Part shown: piece by piece, positions 5,414 to 36,184 of the stretch
How the letters are laid out: each line of letters opens with the position of its first letter
How positions within the stretch are numbered: position 1 is the first letter of the stretch
IMG/VR virus record: IMGVR_UViG_3300037549_000160
Coordinates: 1-40,815 of that record
From: a virus
Strand: one strand, 5' to 3'
DNA: 40,815 bases
The notes under the pieces: generated by a model
The model's input: only the letters and a program-made list of their open reading frames with translations
Told to the model about the DNA's origin: nothing
Database searches by the model: none
Made by a program: the position numbers and the translations under genes

Positions 5414-6967
5414 ATGGCGCGCTGGAATCCCTTCAGCCGCCGCCCGGCGGCCTCCTCGGCCGTCGGCGCGATCGGCGCCGTGGCGCGCTGGGAAGATGCC
5501 GGGCCGCGAGCCCAGGCCGGCCAGCGCACCTGGCTGGCCGCGCAGCCGTCCCGCCTGCTGGCGGACCTGCCGGGCGCCTATATGCGGGCGCCGAATGCGG
5601 ATATCCGCTGGGCGCTGGCCTATCTGCGCAACCGGTCGCGCTGGCTGGCGCAGAATGACGGCTTCACCCGCGGCTATCTCGGCACGCTCCGCCGCAACGT
5701 GGTCGGCCCCGGCGGCTTCACGCTGCAAATGGCGGTGAAGAACGAGAAGGGCGATGGCGAGGATGCCAACGCCAACAAGCGGATCGAGGCGGCCTGGGCG
5801 GAATGGGCGCCGGCCTGCGAGGTGACGGGCAAGCTGACCTTCACCGATCTCTGCCACGCCGCGATCATGGGCGTGCCGCGCGACGGCGAGGTGATTTTCC
5901 GCAAGGTGCGCGGCGGCGGCTTCAACCGCTCCGGCTTCGCCCTGCAGGTGATCGATCCGGCCCGGCTCGATGAAACCTGCAACGGCCGGCCGAACATCGC
6001 CGGCTTCAGCGTCGCCGGCGACAACCTGGTGCGCGCCGGCGTGGAACTGACGCCCTGGGGGCGGCCGGCGGCCTATTGGCTGCGGACCTATACCCCGAAC
6101 GACGATCCGCTGGTGCCGGTGCCGAAACGGCTGGAACGGGTGCCCGCGGACGACATCATCCACCTCTTCGTGCATGAATGGCCGGACCAGATCAGGGGCG
6201 TGCCCTGGCTTTCGGCCTCCATCCGCACCCTGGCCATGCTGGACGGCTACAGCGAGGCGGAATTGACCGCCGCCCGGGTCTCCGCCGGCAAGATGGGCTT
6301 CTACAAGCAGGGCGAGGTCGAGGATGTGCCGGCCGAGCTGCAGAATGATGGCTCCCTGGTGCAGGAATCGACCGCCGGCAGCTTCGAGCTGCTGCCGAAG
6401 GGCGTGTCCTTCGAGTCCTATGACCCGCAGCACCCGAACACCGCCTTCGGCGCCTTCGTCGCGGCCCAGCAGCGCCAGGCGGCGGCCGGCGCCGGCCTTT
6501 CCTACGCCGCCTTCGCCAATGATCCCGGCAGTCTGAACTATTCGGGGCTGCGGCACGTCGCCCTGGAAGACCGCGACGAATACCGCACGCTGCAAAACTG
6601 GATGATCAACAACTTCTGCCTGCGGTTCTTCCCGGAATGGCTCACCGAGACCCTGGTCGCGGGCGTCACGGGACTGCCGCCGGGCAAGTTCTGGAAGTTC
6701 AACGCGCCACGCTTCATCGGCCGCGGCTGGGATTGGGTGGACCCGCAGAACGAGATCAAGGCGGCGCGGGAGGCGGTGGCCCTCGGCATCAAGAGCCGGA
6801 CGCAGATCGTGGCGGAAAAGGGCGGCGACTTCGCGGCGGTGATCGCCGATCTCGAACGCGAACAGGCGGCGATGGCGAACCTGATCCCGCCGCCCGACCT
6901 GGTGGACGAAAACCTGACGCCGGCCGACGCGACGGCGAAGCCCCAGGCGGGCGCAAGCGGAGCCTGA
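5414..6967 (+). CDS. portal protein, lambda gpB family
   Basis: A 517-residue portal protein. It forms the dodecameric ring at the capsid vertex through which DNA enters and leaves. Recognisable family segments are the N-terminal ARWNPFSR, the region YMRAPNADIRWALAYLRNRS, then LRRNVVGPGGFTLQ, VPRDGEVIFRKVRG, FQVIDPARLDET-like sequence and FAAFANDPGSLNYSGLRHV-like sequence near residue 370. The C-terminal tail is alanine-rich and probably flexible. It lies 3 bases after the gpW-like gene and one base before the capsid gene. Confidence 0.93.
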   Translation: MARWNPFSRRPAASSAVGAIGAVARWEDAGPRAQAGQRTWLAAQPSRLLADLPGAYMRAPNADIRWALAYLRNRSRWLAQNDGFTRGYLGTLRRNVVGPGGFTLQMAVKNEKGDGEDANANKRIEAAWAEWAPACEVTGKLTFTDLCHAAIMGVPRDGEVIFRKVRGGGFNRSGFALQVIDPARLDETCNGRPNIAGFSVAGDNLVRAGVELTPWGRPAAYWLRTYTPNDDPLVPVPKRLERVPADDIIHLFVHEWPDQIRGVPWLSASIRTLAMLDGYSEAELTAARVSAGKMGFYKQGEVEDVPAELQNDGSLVQESTAGSFELLPKGVSFESYDPQHPNTAFGAFVAAQQRQAAAGAGLSYAAFANDPGSLNYSGLRHVALEDRDEYRTLQNWMINNFCLRFFPEWLTETLVAGVTGLPPGKFWKFNAPRFIGRGWDWVDPQNEIKAAREAVALGIKSRTQIVAEKGGDFAAVIADLEREQAAMANLIPPPDLVDENLTPADATAKPQAGASGA

Positions 6968-12789: not shown

Positions 12790-14544
12790 ATGAAACTTGC
12801 CGAACTGACGGATCTGGGTGTCCCCGACCCTTCGGCCGTGGTGACGCTGGCGGGCACCGTCAACGGCGTGGGGGGCCGGTTTTCAGCGGCGGCGGTCGCG
12901 GCCTATCTGAATACCGGCGCCGGCGCGGTGCACCTCGCCGATATCGGCACCGTCACCGGCGGCAACAACGGGCCGCTGGTCCGCGCCGCCCTGGCCGAGT
13001 GCATGGCCGTCGGCGATTCGGCGCTCGGCCAGAAGGTGCTGGTCCTGCCGCCCGGCACGACGCAGATCGATTACATGACCATCAACCGCCCCGTGCGGGT
13101 CGAGGGTTGCGGTCGCGGCATGACCACCCTGATGCAGATCGCCGGCCAGACGCTGCCGGTGATCACTGTCAAGCCCGACTACACCACGACCGACCCCAGC
13201 ACCGGCGGCACGAATGGCGCCGTGCAGGTCGCGCTGGAGGGCTTCGGCATCATGTCGCCGTCGCGGATAGGCGCCGGCTCGGGCCTCGCGCACGGCATCC
13301 AGGCGACGCATATCGGGGTGGCGAAGCAGCTTTATACCCAGCTTCGGCTGCGGGACATATACATCAACCAGGTCGCGGGCGACTGCCTGCAGACCGCCAG
13401 CTTCCTGGGATGGCTCGACGCCGACGGCATCTATACACTCTACGGCGGCGCCGCCTGCATCAACCTGAACAGCGTCTATGACGACATCCTGCGGAATTTC
13501 GTGGTCGGCGGGGCGCTCACCCATAACGTCATCGCCGCGGCAGCTGGGACAATCTATTTCGACCAAAGCACCTTCTTCGCTTCGACGCTCTCGAATCTGC
13601 TGGTCGCCGGCCTCACTGATATCACCGTTGCCAATAGCTTCCTTGATGTGGCGGGCAATTGGGGCGCCTACATGGGCATGTCTGCCGGCGGCTATGCCCG
13701 GTTCCCGGGAACCAGCTTCCGCTACAATGGCCAGGCGGCGAACACCTATGCAGATGTTTACTGCCAGGCCACGAATGCGGGCGTCGTGGACCTGACGAAA
13801 GCGATTTTCCGCACGCAGGAAAGCAACACCAGCAGCGTGTGGCCTGGCGGCCCGCTGCACAATATCCAGATCGATGCGGGCTTCCTCGGCGAGGTCATGG
13901 TCTCGCCGGAAACGGTGCTCTGGGGATCGTCGGGACGCGCTTCGCGGAGCAGTTCCGGCTTCTGCAACAACCCCTCGGCCCTAACGCAGACGGTGCAATC
14001 GGGCACGAACACCACCGTAACCCCCGATGGCGTCGTGAATGCGGCGGCCCAAATGGTCTATCCGCCATCCGGCGTTCCGTACAGCACGGGCACGGGATGG
14101 GGTGGCGGCAGCTACACGACCGCCGGCAATGGCACCGTGCTGGCTTTGGCGGCAAACCCCACATTCGCGGGCACGACCAGTCTGACGGCAGCCGCATCCG
14201 CCGATGCGACCGATACGATGGTTTCCGTCTCGGGAAAGGGCGCATTCAAGCGGTTCCGCGATGCCTCCAACAACGGCTGGGATTTCGGGACGGACAGCGC
14301 GGGCAAGCTGGTCATCAACCAGTTCAGTTCCGGCAGCTATACGGCAACCATCGGCGCCTTCGATCCGGCGCTCGGCGCCTTCGCCACCATTCTCGCGCCG
14401 GCGGCGGCATGGTCCCTCACCAGCGGGACCTATCCCGTCAGCAACAAGCAAATGGTGTTCGAGCTGGTCTCGGACACCTCGCTGCGCGTCAAGGTCAGGG
14501 GCTCCGACGGCACGATTCGCAGCGCGACCCTGGCGCTCGCCTAA
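12790..14544 (+). CDS. tailspike/beta-helix protein, pectate-lyase-like
   Basis: A 584-residue protein. After an N-terminal adaptor of about 55 residues comes a right-handed beta-helix start typical of pectate-lyase-3 domains: VLVLPPGTTQIDYMTI, VRVEGCGRGMTTL, then repeated short turns through DGIYTLYGGAACINLN to about residue 400. The C-terminal part (GAFKRFRDASNNGWDFGTDS and on) looks like a separate trimerisation or binding domain. Such proteins bind or cut surface polysaccharide. Its place between tail terminator and tail tube genes, rather than at the tail tip, is unusual. ATG 12790 chosen; the frame is open upstream but that part overlaps the previous gene. Confidence 0.75.
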   Translation: MKLAELTDLGVPDPSAVVTLAGTVNGVGGRFSAAAVAAYLNTGAGAVHLADIGTVTGGNNGPLVRAALAECMAVGDSALGQKVLVLPPGTTQIDYMTINRPVRVEGCGRGMTTLMQIAGQTLPVITVKPDYTTTDPSTGGTNGAVQVALEGFGIMSPSRIGAGSGLAHGIQATHIGVAKQLYTQLRLRDIYINQVAGDCLQTASFLGWLDADGIYTLYGGAACINLNSVYDDILRNFVVGGALTHNVIAAAAGTIYFDQSTFFASTLSNLLVAGLTDITVANSFLDVAGNWGAYMGMSAGGYARFPGTSFRYNGQAANTYADVYCQATNAGVVDLTKAIFRTQESNTSSVWPGGPLHNIQIDAGFLGEVMVSPETVLWGSSGRASRSSSGFCNNPSALTQTVQSGTNTTVTPDGVVNAAAQMVYPPSGVPYSTGTGWGGGSYTTAGNGTVLALAANPTFAGTTSLTAAASADATDTMVSVSGKGAFKRFRDASNNGWDFGTDSAGKLVINQFSSGSYTATIGAFDPALGAFATILAPAAAWSLTSGTYPVSNKQMVFELVSDTSLRVKVRGSDGTIRSATLALA

Positions 14545-14582
14545 CCCCACCCATCCGCCCCAACCAACCGGAGGCCTCCGCT

Positions 14583-15551
14583 ATGGCACGCAGTCGCGGG
14601 CAAGATTTCATCCTCCTCATGGGCGAGGAAACCACCTATGGCGTCCAGCCCGCCTCGCCCTGGCGCCGGCTGCCCTGCATCAGCTTCGACCTCGGCGCCG
14701 AGCAGACGCTGCAGACGGAAGACGTGCTCTCCGCCGGCCTCGGCCGCGAGGATATCGACCCCTACCTGAATCTGCAGGATGTGCGCGGCACGGCCGTGGT
14801 GCCGATCGATGTGCGCAACATCGGCTACTGGCTGAAGGGCGTCTTCGGGCCGGCCACGGTCACCGGCGCCAGCAACCCCTATACCCACACCTGGGCGGTC
14901 TCCGGCGCGCAAGTCAGCCTGCCCTCGCGCAGCTTCGAGAAGGGCTTCCCGGGCGCCCTGACCAACAACAAGTACCTGCAGCCCTCCGGCGTCAAAATCG
15001 ACAGCATGGAGATGACCTGGACCAATGGGTCAGACCAGCGCCCAACCGCCAGCTTTGGCCTGATCGGCCAGAAGGAAGCGGTCGCCAGCTCCTCGGCCGG
15101 CGGTACGCCGACCACCCAGACCTATACCCGCTTCCTGCAGCGCACCGGCGCCCTGAACTACGCCAGCACCTCGCTGACCGATATCATGAGCGCCACGCTG
15201 CGGCTCTCCAACGGTCTGGAGCCGATCAAGACCGTGAACGCCCTCGGCCTCGCCGAAGGGGTCGATGAAGGGCAGTTCAGCTGCTCCGGCGAAATCACGG
15301 TGCGCCACAACGACCCGACGCTTATGGGCAACGCCATCAACACCACCTCCGCGCAGCTCTCCCTCACCTGGACTTATGACGCGAACTGGCAGCTCGCCCT
15401 CACGCTGCCCCGCATCTTCATGGGGCGGCCGAAGGTCGGCGTGCGCGGCCCCGGTGGCGTCGAGGTCACCTATCCCTGGCGCGCGGTGATGAACTCGGCG
15501 CCGGGCGATACCCTCAGCGTCGTGCTGAAGTCGCCGGTGGCCGTTTACTGA
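14583..15551 (+). CDS. major tail tube protein
   Basis: A 322-residue tail tube protein of the gpV-like group. Typical segments are MARSRGQDFILLMGEETTYG at the start, ENI-type central strands, SFEKGFPGALTNNKYLQPSG and VDEGQFSCSGEITVRHNDPT. Copies stack into the tube between the head connector and the tip. GGAGG at 14570-14574 precedes ATG 14583. The following chaperone gene starts inside its stop codon, as in many siphophages. Confidence 0.85.
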   Translation: MARSRGQDFILLMGEETTYGVQPASPWRRLPCISFDLGAEQTLQTEDVLSAGLGREDIDPYLNLQDVRGTAVVPIDVRNIGYWLKGVFGPATVTGASNPYTHTWAVSGAQVSLPSRSFEKGFPGALTNNKYLQPSGVKIDSMEMTWTNGSDQRPTASFGLIGQKEAVASSSAGGTPTTQTYTRFLQRTGALNYASTSLTDIMSATLRLSNGLEPIKTVNALGLAEGVDEGQFSCSGEITVRHNDPTLMGNAINTTSAQLSLTWTYDANWQLALTLPRIFMGRPKVGVRGPGGVEVTYPWRAVMNSAPGDTLSVVLKSPVAVY

Positions 15552-16042
15552 TGTTCAGCCTCACCCTGCCGACCGCGCCGCGCTGGCTGGACCTGCCGCA
15601 CGGCATCCGCGTGCAGGTCAAGCCGATCGACGGCCTGGTGCGCGCCGCGGCCGAAGCCTCCGTGCATCGCACGATCCGGGAGGCGGAGGCGGAGCGGACG
15701 GATCGCATCGAGGTCGGGGCCGGCGTCGCCGACCTGGTCGACCTGGCCGATGCGGATATGCGCCGCGCCTTCATCAGCCTGACCTTCGCGGCCAAGCTCG
15801 CCCGCTACGGGATTGTCGCCTGGGAAGGGATCGAGCAGGACCACACCGGCGACCTGGCGGAGCAGCTGATGCTGCAGCAGGACACCATCGCCGAGGCCTT
15901 CATCGCGGCCTACCTCGCCCCGGTCGCCGCGCTGGCCGCGGAGGGAAACGCATCCGCGCCCGCGCCGAATGGATCTTCGGCGGGGGCGCCGATTACTGCC
16001 GAGGCTGCGCCACCGCCTGCCCCACCTGCCCCCAAGAGCTGA
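15551..16042 (+). CDS. tail assembly chaperone, G-like
   Basis: A 163-residue protein in the place of lambda gpG, between tail tube and tape measure. The body is helical (LVRAAAEASVHRTIREAEAE, then FISLTFAAKLARYGIVAWEG) and the last 30 residues are alanine/proline-rich. It keeps the tape measure in solution during tail assembly. A slippery heptamer at 15943-15949 near its end allows the longer GT product. ATG overlaps the tail tube stop (TGATG). Confidence 0.85.
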   Translation: MFSLTLPTAPRWLDLPHGIRVQVKPIDGLVRAAAEASVHRTIREAEAERTDRIEVGAGVADLVDLADADMRRAFISLTFAAKLARYGIVAWEGIEQDHTGDLAEQLMLQQDTIAEAFIAAYLAPVAALAAEGNASAPAPNGSSAGAPITAEAAPPPAPPAPKS

Positions 16043-20293: not shown

Positions 20294-20871
20294 CCCGCCC
20301 CATGACCTCCGCGGCGCAGGCCGCCGTTGCCGCCGAAGTGGTGCCCCGCACCGTCGCCATCGAGATGGATTTCGACAGCGCGCCGGTGCGGGTGAACGGC
20401 AGCCCCATGGATATGACGCTGTTCGGGAACACCTTCATCGGCGTCGGCGGCCTGGGCAGCATCACCGCCGTGCAGGAGAGCAACGAGAATCGCAGCTACG
20501 ACTGCACCTTCACGCTCTCCGGCATTCCCCGCGATGCCATCGGGCTGGCGATGACGGAGCAATACCAGGGCCGCGCCGCGACCATCTGGGAAGTGCCGCT
20601 GGACCCGGCCAGCTACCTGCCGATCGGCGATCCCATCGTGATCTTCCGCGGCCACATGGACCAGTTGAACCCGACCCTGGGCGAGACCGCGACCTGTTCG
20701 GTGCGGATGATCAACCGCCTGGCGGATTGGGAGGTCGCGCGCAACAGCATGTACACCGATATCGAGCAGCAGCGGCTGCATCCCGGCGATCTCGGGATGC
20801 AGTTCGTCTATGGCGTGGTGAATAAGAACCTGATCTGGCCGGCCCGGGCCTGGTGGGATCACAATTCGTGA
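20290..20871 (+). CDS. minor tail protein (tail hub region)
   Basis: A 193-residue protein of a widespread siphophage type. Recognisable runs are VAIEMDFDSAPVRVNGSP, NTFIGVGGLGSITAVQE, then TFTLSGIPRDAIGLAM, YQGRAATIW and the closing LHPGDLGMQFVYG. These proteins lie between the distal tail protein and the tip. Start GTG 20290 overlaps the previous stop (GTGA); ATG 20302 is a possible start four codons later. Function is inferred from family and order. Confidence 0.75.
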   Translation: MTRPMTSAAQAAVAAEVVPRTVAIEMDFDSAPVRVNGSPMDMTLFGNTFIGVGGLGSITAVQESNENRSYDCTFTLSGIPRDAIGLAMTEQYQGRAATIWEVPLDPASYLPIGDPIVIFRGHMDQLNPTLGETATCSVRMINRLADWEVARNSMYTDIEQQRLHPGDLGMQFVYGVVNKNLIWPARAWWDHNS

Positions 20872-21359
20872 GCGGCACGGAAGCCCCGGCCGCGCCCGCC
20901 GCGCCGCCGCAGCTGCGGAAGCGCCCGCAGGACTGGCCGGACCGGCTGGCGGCCGTGGTGCATGACGCGCTCGATCTGCCCTTCGTGCTGGGCCAGCATG
21001 ATTGCGGCCGCTTCGCCTGCCAGGTGGCGGAGGCGATCACCGGCCGCAACCCGGCGCCCTGGCTGGAGGGCTACACCACCGAGGCCGAGCTGGACGCGCT
21101 GCTGGCCCAGCACGCCGCCCCGGCCGCCGAGGGCAGCACGGCCAGCCTGCTGGAGCGGGCGGTGGCAGCGACGATGCAGGCGTTCGGCGCGACGGAGATC
21201 CCGGTGCTGATGGCCCAGCGCGGCGACTGGGTGATCCTGCAGGTGGGAAACGAGGATTTGCTGGCGGTGGTGATCGGCAAGGATGCCGTGGCGCCAGGGC
21301 CGGACCGGCAGCGGCATGTGCCGGTGGCGAAGTTCGCCAAGCGCGCCTGGGCTATTTGA
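20868..21359 (+). CDS. DUF6950/NlpC-P60-like tail assembly protein
   Basis: A 163-residue protein. The motif VLGQHDCGRFACQVAEAITG carries a likely catalytic cysteine (C46), as in NlpC/P60 cysteine peptidases that open peptidoglycan during DNA injection; lambda gpK is the positional counterpart. The later histidine partner cannot be fixed by eye. Start GTG 20868 forms a GTGA overlap with the previous stop. Its end overlaps by 8 bases with a gene on the other strand, marking the border of the regulatory island. Confidence 0.75.
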   Translation: MSGTEAPAAPAAPPQLRKRPQDWPDRLAAVVHDALDLPFVLGQHDCGRFACQVAEAITGRNPAPWLEGYTTEAELDALLAQHAAPAAEGSTASLLERAVAATMQAFGATEIPVLMAQRGDWVILQVGNEDLLAVVIGKDAVAPGPDRQRHVPVAKFAKRAWAI

Positions 21360-21708
21360 CCTTGGGGCGGCGGGGTTTCTGGTAGGGCGGCGGGTCCGTC
21401 AGGGCGGGCGAGAATCGCGCAACCACCGCCTCTCGTGAGGCTGCCACGCCTTCGCCAAACAGCCGCGCCGGTTCGGACTGCGGCTGCCCAGCAACGCGCT
21501 GGATGCTGGCGGCCAGGTCCGCCATCGCACGTTCCAGCCGATCCAGGCGTTCGCGCTCTACGGTGGCCGGGGCCGGAGAAAACGAGGCTTCGATCCGCGC
21601 GACGATCTCGGCATTCATGGAGCGATTGGCAGCCTTCGCAGATGCCGCAATCCTGCCTTTGAGATCGAGCGGCAGGCGCACGCGCATCATCGGGTCATCT
21701 GCAGCCAT
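21352..21708 (-). CDS. Arc-type ribbon-helix-helix repressor, leftward
   Basis: A 118-residue DNA-binding protein. Residues 6-45 are an Arc/Mnt-like ribbon-helix-helix: DDPMMRVRLPLDLKGRIAAS then ANRSMNAEIVARIEASF. The C-terminal part has a coiled-coil helix (ERLDRLERAMADLAASIQRV) for tetramer formation, like Mnt, and a basic proline-rich end. Start ATG 21708 was chosen because the domain begins there; the frame is open up to 21783. It is divergent from the 21798 Arc-like gene, and both probably bind the palindrome between them, as arc and mnt do in P22. Confidence 0.82.
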   Translation of the reverse strand: MAADDPMMRVRLPLDLKGRIAASAKAANRSMNAEIVARIEASFSPAPATVERERLDRLERAMADLAASIQRVAGQPQSEPARLFGEGVAASREAVVARFSPALTDPPPYQKPRRPKVK

Positions 21709-21714
21709 GGCCCA
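21707..21714. promoter_or_regulatory. half-operator ATGGCCCA over the leftward start codon
   Basis: ATGGCCCA at 21707-21714 repeats the arm sequence of the large palindrome (21743-21750) and overlaps the start codon of the leftward Arc-like gene. It may be a secondary repressor site. Confidence 0.4.
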
Positions 21715-21732
21715 TGGTGAGGCATAAACCCA

Positions 21733-21761
21733 TTGACAGGGAATGGCCCAAAATGGTTCAT
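21733..21761 (+). promoter_or_regulatory. putative rightward promoter of the Arc/Ant island
   Basis: A perfect -35 TTGACA at 21733-21738 is followed after 17 bases by a weak -10 GTTCAT at 21756-21761. The spacer and -10 lie inside the 42-bp palindrome, so binding there would block transcription of the Arc-like and antirepressor genes. Confidence 0.5.
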
Positions 21762-21781
21762 GGACCATGTTGGGCCATTCC
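21740..21781. promoter_or_regulatory. 42-bp near-perfect palindrome, repressor operator
   Basis: Bases 21740-21760 pair with 21761-21781 as inverted repeats with only two mismatched positions of 21. The outer arms are GGAATGGCCCAA and TTGGGCCATTCC. It lies between two divergent Arc-type genes and covers the rightward promoter, and is the obvious binding site for one or both proteins. Arc-family repressors bind as dimer pairs to adjacent half-sites, which suits a long composite palindrome. Confidence 0.85.
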
Positions 21782-21797
21782 AACGGAAGGAGGTCAA

Positions 21798-21998
21798 ATG
21801 GGCACCCATACGGACCTGCAGTTCAAAGTCCGGTTGCCGCGGGATATCCACGATTGGATCGAAGCGCAGGCAAAGGGAAACTGCCGGAGCAAGACCATGG
21901 AAATCGAATATCGGCTGAGGCAAGCAATGCAGATTGCCGAGGCCGGTAGCTGCCGTTCCGGCAGCGCCCCGGGGGCGGGGCCAGCTTTGCAGGCGTAG
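21798..21998 (+). CDS. Arc-type ribbon-helix-helix repressor, rightward
   Basis: A 66-residue protein. THTDLQFKVRLPRDIHDWIE then QAKGNCRSKTMEIEYRLRQA is a typical ribbon-helix-helix, close in size to P22 Arc (53 residues). GAAGGAGGT at 21786-21794 precedes ATG 21798. It is the first gene of a rightward unit that continues with the antirepressor gene, as arc precedes ant in P22. The stop lies inside a long hairpin arm. Confidence 0.85.
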   Translation: MGTHTDLQFKVRLPRDIHDWIEAQAKGNCRSKTMEIEYRLRQAMQIAEAGSCRSGSAPGAGPALQA

Positions 21999-22010
21999 CC
22001 CCGCCCCCGG
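21969..22010 (+). terminator. long GC hairpin at the end of the rightward Arc-like gene
   Basis: CCGGGGGCGGGGC at 21969-21981 pairs perfectly with GCCCCGCCCCCGG at 21998-22010, loop 16 bases. No run of T follows, so it may slow or stop polymerase only in part, or protect or occlude message between arc-like and antirepressor genes. A smaller hairpin, GCCCG 22026-22030 with CGGGC 22037-22041, follows. Confidence 0.5.
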
Positions 22011-22074
22011 CTTCACTGACCCAGGCCCGTAGGAGCGGGCGGAAGGTCTTCACCATCTCAAGAGGACTGAGACG

Positions 22075-22617
22075 ATGAGCGAGCAAAGAATTACCCCTTT
22101 TCTGTTCGAGGGGGAAGCAATGGTGCGTGTGGTCGAGCGCGGCGGGAACCCGTGGTTCGTGGCGGCCGATGTCTGCAAGGTGCTGGGCATCCGGAACGCG
22201 ACCCAGGCGGTCGGGGCACTCGATGACGACGAACGGGCTATGTTGAACATAGGCCCCCAGGGGAACGCGAACTGCATTTCGGAGGGCGGCCTCTACACCC
22301 TGATCCTCCGCAGCCGGGATGCGACCAAGCCTGGCACAGTGGCCCACCGCTTTCGGAAGTGGGTGACCGCCGAGGTACTCCCAGCCCTCCGGCAGCACGG
22401 TGGCTATGGCGCTCCGCCATCGCTCCCGCCGCAGCGGCCCGATGAAGATGGCGAGCTTCCCGAGGGCACGCGCGTCCGGCTAGTGACGGAAACACGCCAG
22501 AGCTTTGGTATCCAGGCGGCGCAGCAGATGTGGTTCACCATGAAGCTGCCGATCGTCCCGGCCATGTTGGCCGAGCAGCAGCACCCTGACCTGTTCCGGC
22601 CGGGCGGCACCCACTGA
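22075..22617 (+). CDS. ant: antirepressor, BRO-N domain
   Basis: A 180-residue protein. Residues 5-110 are a BRO-N domain: TPFLFEGEAMVRVVERGGNP, WFVAADVCKVLGIRNATQAV, LDDDERAML, ISEGGLYTLILRSR and FRKWVTAEVLPALRQHGGY. Phage antirepressors with this domain bind and disable the prophage repressor. The C-terminal part (about 60 residues) is short and lacks a known partner domain. It follows a divergent Arc-type pair, as ant follows arc in the P22 immI region. AGAGGA at 22061-22066 is the ribosome-binding site. Confidence 0.85.
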   Translation: MSEQRITPFLFEGEAMVRVVERGGNPWFVAADVCKVLGIRNATQAVGALDDDERAMLNIGPQGNANCISEGGLYTLILRSRDATKPGTVAHRFRKWVTAEVLPALRQHGGYGAPPSLPPQRPDEDGELPEGTRVRLVTETRQSFGIQAAQQMWFTMKLPIVPAMLAEQQHPDLFRPGGTH

Positions 22618-23009
22618 TGCCCGCCCTCTCGCGCCGCCAGATGGCGGGCGCTGCGGCCGGGCTGGCGATGGTGCCAGCCGCGGCTAAGGCCGACCCTGAC
22701 GCCCGGCTGCGGGCGCTGTGCGCGGAGTTCATCGCCTTGCAGCGCCAGATGTCCGACATGGATCAGCCCTTCCGGGACCAGGATGAGGATGTGCCGGACG
22801 ACATCCTGGAATTCCAGCGGGACCACCTGGTGCCGCGGGTCTATGAAATCCGCAGCGCGGTAGCGGGTTTGCCGGCGCAGACCTGGCTCGGCTGCGCGGC
22901 CAAGGCCCGCATGGTCTTCGCCGACCTCGGCGAGTACGGGGTGCCGGCCGACCAGCCGGATCGCCATGCGGCCTGGAGTCTTGCGCGCGATGTGATGGCG
23001 CTGGGGTGA
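22617..23009 (+). CDS. hypothetical protein with an N-terminal signal-like segment
   Basis: A 130-residue protein, unrecognised. It starts MPALSRRQMAGAAAGLAMVP with a twin-arginine-like SRRQ and a weakly hydrophobic stretch ending in AAAKA, which may be an export signal with cleavage near residue 24. The rest is helical and charged. ATG overlaps the antirepressor stop (TGATG), so it is made with that protein. If exported, it could alter the envelope of the host, as many accessory phage proteins do; this is inference. Confidence 0.65.
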   Translation: MPALSRRQMAGAAAGLAMVPAAAKADPDARLRALCAEFIALQRQMSDMDQPFRDQDEDVPDDILEFQRDHLVPRVYEIRSAVAGLPAQTWLGCAAKARMVFADLGEYGVPADQPDRHAAWSLARDVMALG

Positions 23010-23057: not shown

Positions 23058-23429
23058 CTATTTGAAGAGGATTTCCTCGACCGAGCCCGGAGGCAGATCC
23101 CGCTCGAAGCCCTGATCGAGATATTCAGCGTTCATGAATAGCTTGCCGTCCACATAACGGTGGCAAAGCTGGCGAGTTTCGGTCGCAAGGTCACGAATAA
23201 CCAGCGGGCCGCAATAAAGTACCGCCCCATCCTTGGTCCTCACGCGATCAGCAACTAGAACGGTTCCCGCTGGGAACTCCCAGGTATTCCCGACTGCTCC
23301 GCGCATTCGGACAGTCTCTTTGAAGCGGAGCGCAGCGAGCCCCTCCGGCGACCGGGGAACAAGGGTTGTTGGCATCGCACAACCGGCCAAGGTCAGCGCA
23401 GAAAAGACCACAGCTATCGAAAATCGCAC
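23058..23429 (-). CDS. lipoprotein, possible superinfection-exclusion or conversion gene
   Basis: A 123-residue lipoprotein on the strand opposite to the tail genes. The signal runs VRFSIAVVFSALTLAGC with lipobox LAGC, cysteine at residue 17. The mature part is about 107 residues with short strands (TWEFPAGTVLVADRVRT, GAVLYCGPLVIRD) and two further cysteines. Start GTG 23429 is preceded by GGAG at 23437-23440. Small phage lipoproteins often block receptors against further infection (T5 Llp is an example). It has its own promoter and terminator-like hairpin, the arrangement of a gene expressed in the lysogen. Confidence 0.75.
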   Translation of the reverse strand: MRFSIAVVFSALTLAGCAMPTTLVPRSPEGLAALRFKETVRMRGAVGNTWEFPAGTVLVADRVRTKDGAVLYCGPLVIRDLATETRQLCHRYVDGKLFMNAEYLDQGFERDLPPGSVEEILFK

Positions 23430-23455
23430 GAGGAATCTCCAACCTGGAGCGCCCG

Positions 23456-23500: not shown

Positions 23501-25852
23501 ATGCCCCCATTGATTGTCGCAGCGGTCGCGGCGTTGGCGACCATCGCCACAACGGCGGTGCTCGCCTCCGGTGTGCTGGGTTTCGTCATCACGGGCTTCG
23601 CCGCCGCGGCCATCGCCGCCGCGGTCGGCCTGGTGGTCTCCTTCGGCCTCACCTCGCTGCTGCACCTGAACAAGAACAAGCACGCCCCGAACACCACCGT
23701 CGACCAGCAGCAGCTGATCCGCGCCGCCACCGAGCCGCGCCGCATCATCTACGGGGAGGCCCGCGTCGGTGGCACCATCCTCTATGCCGCCAGCTCCGGC
23801 GAATACAGCGAGTATCTGCACCTGGTCATCGCGATCGCGGCGCATCCCTGCCACAGCATCGGCAATATCTGGTTCGATGACCAGTTGATCCAGCCCTACC
23901 AGATCGAGAGCAGCGGCAATGTCTGGTCCGGCACCTACACCAACGTCGCCCGGATCAAGAAATACCTGGGTGACCAGACGGCGGCCGACAGCGATCTGGT
24001 CTCGGAAAGCCCGGATGGGTGGTCCAGCAATCACAAGCTGCTGGGCATCACCTATCTCTATGTTCGGCTGAAGTACAATTCCAGCATCTACCAGGGCATC
24101 CCGAACATCACCTGCCTTGTCGAAGGCAAGAACGATATCTACGACCCGCGCAGCAGCAGCACCGGCTACACCATGAACTGGGCGCTCTGCGTCCGGGACT
24201 ACCTGAAGGCAGATTTCGGGCTGGCCTGCGCCGATGCCGAGATCGATTCCGCCAGCTTCATCGCCGCCGCCAACCTCTCGGATGAAGCGGTGGCCGAGGA
24301 TGAATCCGGCGCCACCACCCAGCCGCGCTACCAGATTTCCGGCACCTTCACGCTGGACCAGACGCCGATCGACATCATCGACAGCCTGATGGCCGCCGGC
24401 GCCGGGGCGCTCACCTATGTGCAGGGCGCCTACCAGCTTTTCGGCGGCGCCTATGCCAGCGCCAGCGCCAGCCTCGGCATGTCGGATTTCGCCGGCACGC
24501 TGGAGGTCACCACCCAGCCGCCGCGCAGCCAGTTGTTCAACAGCATCAAGGGCACCTTCACCGACAAGGATAAGAACTGGATCACCAGCGACTATCCGCC
24601 CATGCAGTTCAGCAGCTACATCACCGCCGATGGCAGCCAGATCTGGCGGCAGATCGATCATCCCTGGATCACCAACGCCATCCGCGCGCAGCGGCTCTCG
24701 AAGCAGATGCTGTTGCGGTCCCGCCACGGCATCACGGTGAAGGTGCCGCTGCGCTATGCGTCGCTGACCCTCTGCGGCTGGGATGTGGTGGCGCTCACGG
24801 TGCCGGACCTCGGCTGGACCTCGAAGCCCTTCCGCATCGTGGCCTGGGAATACGATCCGGCGCGCGGCCAGTGCAGCGCCTCGCTGCAGGAGGAACAGGC
24901 CACCGATTTCTCCTGGACCTATGATGCCGCCGCGGCGGCGCTGGACACGCCCTCGACCACCCTCACCAGCCCGCTGGGGCTGCCGCAGCCGAACACCCTG
25001 GTGCTGTCCAGCACCACCCAGATCAACGCGGATGGCAGCGTGCTGCCGGCCCTGCAGGTGACCTGGGCCGAGGCCTACTCCGCCTTCGTCAACGCCAATG
25101 AGGTCCAGTGGCGGCAGGGCAGCGGGGATCCCTGGCACAGCATGCAGGTGGCCGTCGGCGTCGGCCGCGCCATCATCATGCCGGTACAGATGAACGCCGA
25201 TTACGATGTGCAGGTGCGCGCCATCGGCGGCCTGGTTTATGGCCCTTTCACCAGCATCGCCAGCATCACCATCGGCACGCATGTGGCCTCCCCGCCAGTG
25301 CCCACCGGCGCCAGCTGCACCGGCGTGCAGGGCGGCTTCACGGTGCAGTGGACCAACCCGACCAACACCGATTTCGACCGGGTTTGGGTGCAGGCCTCGG
25401 CCGATGGCGGCAGCACCTGGACCACCATGGCCCAGACCAAGGCCAGCTATGTCCGGCTCTCCGGTTTCAATCCGGATGACGTGCGCAGCTTCCAGGTCGC
25501 CGCGGTCGATACCTCTGGCAATTTCTCGAGCTGGGTCTCGGCCGGCGCGGCGACCGTGCCGCGGCTGGTGACCAACGACCTCGCCTCCGGCAGCTTCAGC
25601 AGCCTCGGCGTGGCGCAGGCCTGGACCACGCAGAGCCTCACGCGACCCGGCTCCGGCTACAGCATGTCGACCATCGTCAGCACCACGGTGACGCTGGCCG
25701 GCGATGCGCGGGTGAGCATCCGCACCAAGCTGCCGGCCAAGCTGGTGACCTGGACGGCGACCGGCGGCGGCTCCGGCTCGACCGGCGGCGCCGATAGTGG
25801 CGGCGGCGGCGGCGGGGCTTCCGGTGATGGCGGCGGCGGGGGAGGATTCTGA
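23501..25852 (+). CDS. tail tip / host-specificity protein, J-like
   Basis: A 783-residue tip protein. The first 60 residues are hydrophobic (residues 1-50, two helices), recalling a gpI-type segment fused to J. The core follows (RIIYGEARVGGTILYAASSG, HPCHSIGNIWFDDQLI, KYNSSIYQGIPNITCLVEGK, YDPRSSSTGYTMNWALCVRD), typical of J and gp44-like tip proteins. Two fibronectin-III-like domains span about residues 495-690. The end is glycine-rich: from residue 755 onwards mostly glycine, finishing in phenylalanine. It is expected to bind the receptor and start DNA release. ATG 23501 has only a weak ribosome-binding sequence. Confidence 0.88.
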   Translation: MPPLIVAAVAALATIATTAVLASGVLGFVITGFAAAAIAAAVGLVVSFGLTSLLHLNKNKHAPNTTVDQQQLIRAATEPRRIIYGEARVGGTILYAASSGEYSEYLHLVIAIAAHPCHSIGNIWFDDQLIQPYQIESSGNVWSGTYTNVARIKKYLGDQTAADSDLVSESPDGWSSNHKLLGITYLYVRLKYNSSIYQGIPNITCLVEGKNDIYDPRSSSTGYTMNWALCVRDYLKADFGLACADAEIDSASFIAAANLSDEAVAEDESGATTQPRYQISGTFTLDQTPIDIIDSLMAAGAGALTYVQGAYQLFGGAYASASASLGMSDFAGTLEVTTQPPRSQLFNSIKGTFTDKDKNWITSDYPPMQFSSYITADGSQIWRQIDHPWITNAIRAQRLSKQMLLRSRHGITVKVPLRYASLTLCGWDVVALTVPDLGWTSKPFRIVAWEYDPARGQCSASLQEEQATDFSWTYDAAAAALDTPSTTLTSPLGLPQPNTLVLSSTTQINADGSVLPALQVTWAEAYSAFVNANEVQWRQGSGDPWHSMQVAVGVGRAIIMPVQMNADYDVQVRAIGGLVYGPFTSIASITIGTHVASPPVPTGASCTGVQGGFTVQWTNPTNTDFDRVWVQASADGGSTWTTMAQTKASYVRLSGFNPDDVRSFQVAAVDTSGNFSSWVSAGAATVPRLVTNDLASGSFSSLGVAQAWTTQSLTRPGSGYSMSTIVSTTVTLAGDARVSIRTKLPAKLVTWTATGGGSGSTGGADSGGGGGGASGDGGGGGGF

Positions 25853-32106: not shown

Positions 32107-33162
32107 TTAACCTTGCTTTCCGTCGCCTGATTTGCCGTTTGCTCTACGGGTCGGCAAACGCAGAATCGCCGCCTCGCCCATGCGATCGCGGTTCACCGCA
32201 GCGGTGTATCTCTCGACCTCGCGCAGCGTCCTGTGCCCGGTAATGGCGGCGATCTCGGTCGCGCTGCACCCGGCCTCGGCCAGTCGCACGGCGGCGAGTT
32301 TCCGCAGGCCGTGCAAATTCAGATCCCGGCCGGGCCCGCGCAGGCCGAGCCCGTCGAGGTGGCGCGCGAGCGTGTTCGACAGGTTGATCCGATTCCACGG
32401 CACGCCGGTACGGCCGACCAGGATATGCGTGGAGCCTGCTTCCGCACGCCATGCGGTTAGCTCTGGCAGCAGGTCTGGGTGGCACGGGACGCGCATCGCC
32501 ATCCCGGTCTTTTCCTGCGTCAGCCGCAGCGCCCGGCCATCGAACGCGGCCCAGGTCAGCGCGCACAGGTCGCCGCGGCGCTGGCCGGTATAGACCGCCA
32601 GCACCACCATGCGGCGCAGGTGTTCCGGCAAGCCGGCGACGGCGATCGCGTACTCGGCTTCGGTCCATGTCGGGAAAGTGCCGCCGGCGATCGGCCGCAT
32701 GCGCGCGGCGGGGCTGTATTCGATCCAGTCGCGGTCGACGGCCCAGGCGAGCAAGGCGGCGACCTTCTGCGCCCAGGCATTGCCGGCGGCGGGGCCTCTC
32801 GCGCCGGCCACGGCATCGCGCAGCGTCAGGAGATCGCGGCGCTTGATGGCCGTCACGGGCAAGTGGTCGATTTTCGCCAGCAGGCCGAGGTAGCGGGTTG
32901 TCGCTGTCACGGTGCGAGACTTGAGGGCGGCAAACTCGGGGCTGGCGCGGTAGGCCCGGATCAGCGCGCGGAGTGTGTCGGCATCTGGTCGTGCTCCGAC
33001 CTGTCGCTCTGCTGCGGCGAGGGCGTCGGCAAACCCTGCATCGTCCAGCCCCGGCAGGCGCCGGCCGGTCGCGCGATGGTAGAGGTACTCGACCTCGGAC
33101 CCGTCAGCGAGCCGCGCCTTGACGGCCCGCACGCCGCGGGGATGACGCGATGGTCTGGGCAA
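32107..33162 (-). CDS. int: tyrosine recombinase, phage integrase
   Basis: A 351-residue integrase. The catalytic set is present: arginine in TGQRRGDL (about R195), lysine in TQEKTG (K218), H284 and R287 in LHGLRK, H310 in GHRT and tyrosine Y319 in VERYT. An N-terminal arm-binding part and core-binding domain precede (residues 1-155). It joins attP and attB. Start TTG 33162 is uncertain; GTG 33132 is an alternative. It overlaps the excisionase-like gene by 59 bases, which links their translation. Last gene of the leftward operon. Confidence 0.92.
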   Translation of the reverse strand: MPRPSRHPRGVRAVKARLADGSEVEYLYHRATGRRLPGLDDAGFADALAAAERQVGARPDADTLRALIRAYRASPEFAALKSRTVTATTRYLGLLAKIDHLPVTAIKRRDLLTLRDAVAGARGPAAGNAWAQKVAALLAWAVDRDWIEYSPAARMRPIAGGTFPTWTEAEYAIAVAGLPEHLRRMVVLAVYTGQRRGDLCALTWAAFDGRALRLTQEKTGMAMRVPCHPDLLPELTAWRAEAGSTHILVGRTGVPWNRINLSNTLARHLDGLGLRGPGRDLNLHGLRKLAAVRLAEAGCSATEIAAITGHRTLREVERYTAAVNRDRMGEAAILRLPTRRANGKSGDGKQG

Positions 33163-35797: not shown

Positions 35798-36184
35798 TTA
35801 ATTTTTCTTTTTGGCCTCGGCCAGCAACCGGGCATTCTGAATAACCGCTTCCCATTCTTCGGGCGCCAGGGCGTCCATCAGGGCGAGCGCCTCCTCGACC
35901 TTTGGGCTGAGTTCCGCATCGGCCGGTGCCCGAAGCAGATCGCCAGGCTGGGCTTTCAATAGGACTGCAATCTGACGCAGCTGACCGACGCTCATACCGT
36001 GCTTCCCGCTGATCCAACCTGAGACAGTTGCATCCGATACGCCGAGGGCGGCGGCGATGTGCTTCTGCCGTAAGCGTCGCAGCTTAAGCCATGTGGGAAG
36101 ATGTTCCAACATTGTTCTCTGTTCCGTGAGTTGAGCGAGCCGACGTAGCTCGATCTCTTCGGGAGTCTCGGGGATTGCGGTCAT
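35798..36184 (-). CDS. CI-like repressor, short form
   Basis: A 128-residue protein with an XRE-type helix-turn-helix (about residues 35-75: LRQKHIAAALGVSDATVSGW, then HGMSVGQLRQIAVLLK). The remaining 50 residues are helical and acidic then basic (ALMDALAPEEWEAVIQNARL). It has no room for the S24 autocleavage domain of lambda CI. It lies opposite to a Cro-like gene and between matching operators, so it is the likely prophage repressor. Start ATG 36184 or ATG 36205; neither has a good ribosome-binding sequence. Confidence 0.8.
   Translation of the reverse strand: MTAIPETPEEIELRRLAQLTEQRTMLEHLPTWLKLRRLRQKHIAAALGVSDATVSGWISGKHGMSVGQLRQIAVLLKAQPGDLLRAPADAELSPKVEEALALMDALAPEEWEAVIQNARLLAEAKKKN

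Follow-up and report, generated by a model that had tools for sequence, protein, structure and literature searches.

A P22 immI-like module with a Bro-N gene and candidate operator box pairs between the tail genes of a phage linked by its nearest relatives to Acetobacterales

The question raised by this locus is whether a small group of regulatory genes lying between the tail genes of a virus forms an immunity module of the P22 immI type and, if so, how far the likeness to P22 extends. The DNA analysed, hereafter the window, is a whole stretch of 40,815 bases from an IMG/VR virus record. Given that it encodes an integrase (32107-33162) and a helix-turn-helix repressor of 128 aa (35798-36184, minus strand), the phage is very probably temperate, and its nearest relatives point to Acetobacterales as the host group. 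A first-pass annotation had placed a P22 immI-like module at 21352-22617, within the tail gene cluster. The features of the locus are as follows.

21352-21708, minus strand: arcL, a Mnt-like ribbon-helix-helix (RHH) repressor of 118 aa whose C-terminal tail is extended (Pfam Arc, 2.5e-9)
21708-21714, no strand: TGGCCCA, an operator-like box set apart at the start codon of arcL; exact match to TGGNCCA
21733-21738, plus strand: TTGACA, a putative -35-like element for arcR-bro, by sequence
21740-21781, no strand: 42-bp palindrome, the proposed composite operator, with two 21-nt arms complementary at 19 of 21 positions and no spacer
21784-21792, plus strand: arcR ribosome-binding site GGAAGGAGG, by sequence
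21798-21998, plus strand: arcR, a short Arc-like RHH repressor of 66 aa (Pfam Arc, 7.3e-6)
21969-22010, no strand: GC hairpin over the arcR stop, 13 bp and perfect, from a repeat search; a putative attenuator or terminator, or sar-like
22075-22617, plus strand: bro, a Bro-N antirepressor-family protein of 180 aa (Pfam Bro-N, 3.6e-20; PHROG anti-repressor Ant, 1.3e-39)
22617-23009, plus strand: small protein whose ORF overlaps the bro stop, with an SRR...AxA signal of the export type seen by inspection
23058-23435, minus strand: putative lipoprotein moron adjoining the tip gene, with a lipobox-like LAGC by inspection

The two repressor genes are divergent, with a spacer of 89 bp between them, and the Arc matches of both proteins exceed the curated Pfam cut-off, so that the divergent Arc-type pair flanking a palindrome, as first annotated, is upheld. 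The best solved relative of ArcL is Mnt of P22 itself (1mnt; E 1.3e-5, alignment covering residues 2-66), and the gene starts with the ATG at 21708. For arcR, AAGGAGGT stands immediately 5' of the start at 21798, which makes it unlikely that the gene begins instead at 21714, in a longer reading frame that would engulf the palindrome. A search of viral contigs for arcR relatives gave one weak match. The bro gene lies downstream of arcR on the same strand, and its product scores 72.8 bits against a Pfam cut-off of 25.6 for the Bro-N domain, which is followed by a tail of about 60 aa in what is a short protein. The expected antirepressor gene after the Arc pair is thus present at the level of family, and the protein is an antirepressor by family name only. 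No solved-structure relative of it was found. Bro-N proteins sharing about 40-45% identity over most of its length are known from N15 (gp30), phiKO2 (gp27) and phiV10 (gp23) (phrog_130, phrog_245); gp23 of phiV10 likewise adjoins tail-fibre genes, but in none of the three phages is an adjacent divergent repressor pair annotated.

In the annotated record of P22, immI comprises mnt (14519-14770, minus strand), Oarc (14798-14818), Omnt (14822-14844), arc (14861-15022, plus strand), the sar antisense RNA (15021-15090), whose terminator falls on the stop codon of arc, and ant (15091-15993, plus strand). The order and strands of the genes are the same in the window, where a Mnt-like and an Arc-like repressor diverge from candidate operator DNA and an antirepressor-family gene follows arcR, and the distance from start to start is 90 nt in the window and 91 nt in P22. 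Also, a hairpin spans the arcR stop in the window, the position taken in P22 by the sar terminator. The antirepressors differ in family, as P22 Ant is composed of P22_AR_N and P22_AR_C whereas the Pfam P22_AR models gave no match to the window protein, which matched Bro-N only. P22 moreover has separate Oarc and Omnt sites where the window has one composite 42-bp candidate operator of repeated boxes, and the small export-signal ORF that overlaps the antirepressor gene is unlike P22. The likeness to P22 therefore lies in the architecture of the module and not in every part; the immI-like reading stands for order, strand, spacing, the Mnt-like ArcL, the palindrome and the hairpin, and fails for the antirepressor family.

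The placement between the DUF6950 protein and the tip protein is borne out by the flanking matches. On the 5' side are genes for Dit, a phrog_2048 tail protein and DUF6950 (20853-21359) (Pfam, PHROG), and on the 3' side is a tip/fibre protein (23501-25852; phrog_5616, 2e-90), so that the module, together with the exported-protein and lipoprotein ORFs, sits in the late genes. The first-pass annotation had presented this interruption of the tail operon as a contrast to P22, which is mistaken, since immI in P22 falls within the interval from late gene 16 to late gene 9, beside sieA, and has been described as "inside the late operon" (PMC8022706). The same kind of region, shared with other non-virion genes, is thus occupied in both phages, although the setting is a tape-measure/Dit/tip cluster here and gene 16/gene 9 in P22. 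Work on phage epsilon34 (PMC2629481) names this P22 region the "ant moron".

The palindrome was confirmed as annotated, with 19 of 21 symmetric pairs, and it scores highest in the whole window; in 100 dinucleotide shuffles of the window, the best palindrome per shuffle averaged 15.4 pairs and never exceeded 17. Its internal structure was revealed by a sister phage, L003 (IMG/VR contig 3300049135_000018), which carries the whole module at the same tail slot, from DUF6950 to the tip protein. Alignment of the two spacers splits the palindrome into 7-bp TGGNCCA boxes at 21744, 21754 (TGGTTCA), 21761 and 21771, with a spacing of 10/7/10. Four exact TGGNCCA boxes lie within about 70 bp, a density that none of 300 shuffles of the window reached. 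In L003 the boxes are found at 5678, 5688, 5702 and 5712 (CGGGCCA), spaced 10/14/10, and an outlying box (TGGGCCA, 5652) lies 26 bp ahead of the first paired one. A central 7-bp insertion in L003 breaks the symmetry of the palindrome yet both box pairs with 10-bp spacing are retained, so that constraint probably acts on the box pairs rather than on the palindrome as a whole. RHH proteins of the MetJ and Arc type bind as dimers side by side on DNA, and constrained pairs of boxes are what such binding would lead one to expect. TTGAC stands 5-6 nt ahead of the first box in both phages, so that occupancy of the boxes would cover a predicted rightward promoter; a scan of the module region for sigma-70-like promoters returned none, and by consensus no acceptable -10 lies near TTGACA. 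An additional box pair with 10-bp spacing, TGGACCACCATGGCCCA, occurs at 25418-25434 inside the tip gene, and as an operator it was rejected as probably a chance occurrence within coding sequence.

The order of genes in L003 is TMP-Dit-phrog_2048-DUF6950, followed by arcL, arcR, bro, the exported-protein ORF, two extra genes and the lipoprotein gene, and then the tip gene; the overlap of bro with the exported-protein ORF, the box pairs and the hairpin are shared with the window. Between the two phages Bro is 67% identical, ArcL 49% and ArcR 45%. Changes at codon positions 1/2/3 number 36/40/82 in bro and 35/29/56 in arcL, an excess at third positions that is a sign of selection on these proteins, and 23/24/29 in arcR, where the bias is weak. 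The two extra genes (L003:7014-7872) are an ORF with weak HNH similarity and a phrog_4652 gene; they separate the exported-protein ORF from the lipoprotein gene and are lacking in the window, which suggests that this tail gap gains and loses genes.

The hairpin folds at -40 kcal/mol, and its counterpart in L003 at -47. Twelve of the 13 pairs are retained in L003, one of them through changes on both sides, a covariation that, with two sequences and one changed pair and a value often reached by shuffles, is suggestive only. The element has no T-run, and a terminator scan gave nothing useful. Compared with sar, it is a conserved hairpin at the matching place, the arcR stop, but without an antisense promoter recognisable in a sigma-70 scan; it may serve as an attenuator or a terminator, or belong to an antisense system. 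A NusG/RfaH-like antiterminator is encoded upstream of the terminase at 1492-2088 (Pfam NusG, 1.1e-17; the RfaH model gives 8.2e-16, yet below its cut-off), and could permit late transcription to read through the module and hairpin.

The wider distribution of the module was assessed with an Arc profile built for this analysis and applied within fetched loci. Among the 80 top-ranking viral relatives of Bro, 55 loci contain a divergent Arc pair, and 78 of 80 ArcL relatives have a divergent partner. Among Bro-N loci from sequenced genomes, such a pair was detected in 8 of 65. Long palindromes are common in these spacers: in 55 of 108 distinct ones, no more than one of 30 shuffles matched the best palindrome. 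A nucleotide search of phage records returned short Bro-N matches only. Position in the tail region is recurrent: the module stops just before a tape-measure gene in L027 and about 900 bases before one in L063, it comes after tail-fibre genes in L004, and in L175, a prophage of Falsiroseomonas tokyonensis, the tape measure is preceded, at a distance of a few genes, by a bro for which no Arc pair was recognised. The view that a tail location is unusual was hence rejected on P22, epsilon34, L003, L004, L175, L027 and L063, and such a location is standard for these modules.

We contend, with good confidence, that the module is an ant moron of the P22 immI type working as an antirepressor switch. 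In the lysogen, ArcL and ArcR dimers would occupy the TGGNCCA boxes in pairs one helical turn apart and would thereby repress the rightward promoter of arcR, bro and the 22617-23009 ORF, with ArcL additionally controlling its own leftward promoter. Infection or loss of ArcL would lead to brief expression of the rightward operon, which ArcR would then switch off again, while the Bro-N protein would act as an antirepressor and release a prophage repressor; the hairpin at the arcR stop would limit or time bro expression. As immI does in P22, the module may provide a second immunity region. The repressor at 35798-36184 is a plausible target, offered as a guess, and since it is without a peptidase domain (Pfam), cleavage by RecA is improbable and the protein is probably not RecA-cleavable.

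The end of the module probably requires revision. The content first assigned to 21352-22617 holds, but the end coordinate excludes two further non-virion-like ORFs of the same gap, at 22617-23009 (plus strand) and 23058-23435 (minus strand). The bro gene terminates in TGATG, the ATG of which is the start of the 22617-23009 ORF, and the overlap is identical in L003, L004 and L175, which makes four loci with the window; most likely this ORF is part of the bro operon, which carries the module past its first-pass limit. Single-sequence searches of viral contigs with the exported protein and the lipoprotein found no relatives, an alignment-based search of viral contigs found L003 and L004 only, and the exported protein had no tblastn match in phage records. 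Of 299 genomes of Acetobacterales, the order of Falsiroseomonas, 65 encode the exported-protein family, some in tandem copies; 30 loci from that search were read, and in 6 of them bro lies in the same locus of about 3.4 kb. It can be speculated, tentatively, that an enlarged immI exists in Acetobacterales-associated phages, in which bro may be coupled translationally to the exported protein and both repressors may share one composite operator. If true, the switch that releases a prophage repressor would also export a protein, for example to block or sense superinfection, and the composite operator of boxes spaced by 10 bp would be a single switch and not separate Mnt and Arc sites.

The lipoprotein ORF is divergent from the tip gene, and its homologue at the same place in L003 is 37% identical, with a third-position excess of changes; a superinfection-exclusion or conversion gene is a candidate function. 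Together with the TGATG overlap in four loci and the carriage of sieA by P22's own ant moron, this recurrence speaks for a cassette for superinfection exclusion or lysogenic conversion, in which the repressors would chiefly control the exported protein and the lipoprotein, and Bro would be an accessory regulator. We regard such a reading as unlikely, because members of the exported-protein family are also found in Acetobacterales loci that show no bro in the stretch read, and because the lipoprotein gene is on the opposite strand, outside the operon.

Still less probable is a decayed or repurposed moron, a former immI whose short Bro no longer antagonises a repressor, so that only the repressor pair, or nothing, would be in use. 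Degraded copies of ant and arc are on record in related late-operon morons (PMC2629481), and Bro is much shorter than P22 Ant. Nevertheless, all reading frames are intact, divergence from L003 is biased towards third positions in bro, arcL and the flanking ORFs (weakly so in arcR), and the operator boxes and hairpin are conserved. An RHH/Bro addiction pair resembling toxin-antitoxin systems can hardly be credited: Makarova et al. (2009) count Bro antirepressors and adjacent HTH regulators among the TA-like pairs and note that some Ant-domain proteins are toxic (PMC2701414), but the association described there concerns Xre-type repressors, its authors favour a regulatory reading, and the divergent arrangement of two repressors resembles immI, not a TA operon.

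As an antirepressor switch of the immI type, the window module is a good but ordinary example of a textbook kind, and the immI or ant-moron layout appears as a recurrent plug-in of phage tail regions rather than a peculiarity of P22. To this layout the window adds a different antirepressor family, in a phage that, to judge by its nearest relatives, infects Acetobacterales. The conserved box pairs provide a directly testable operator candidate, and the exported protein, probably coupled to bro, goes beyond the immI layout of P22.
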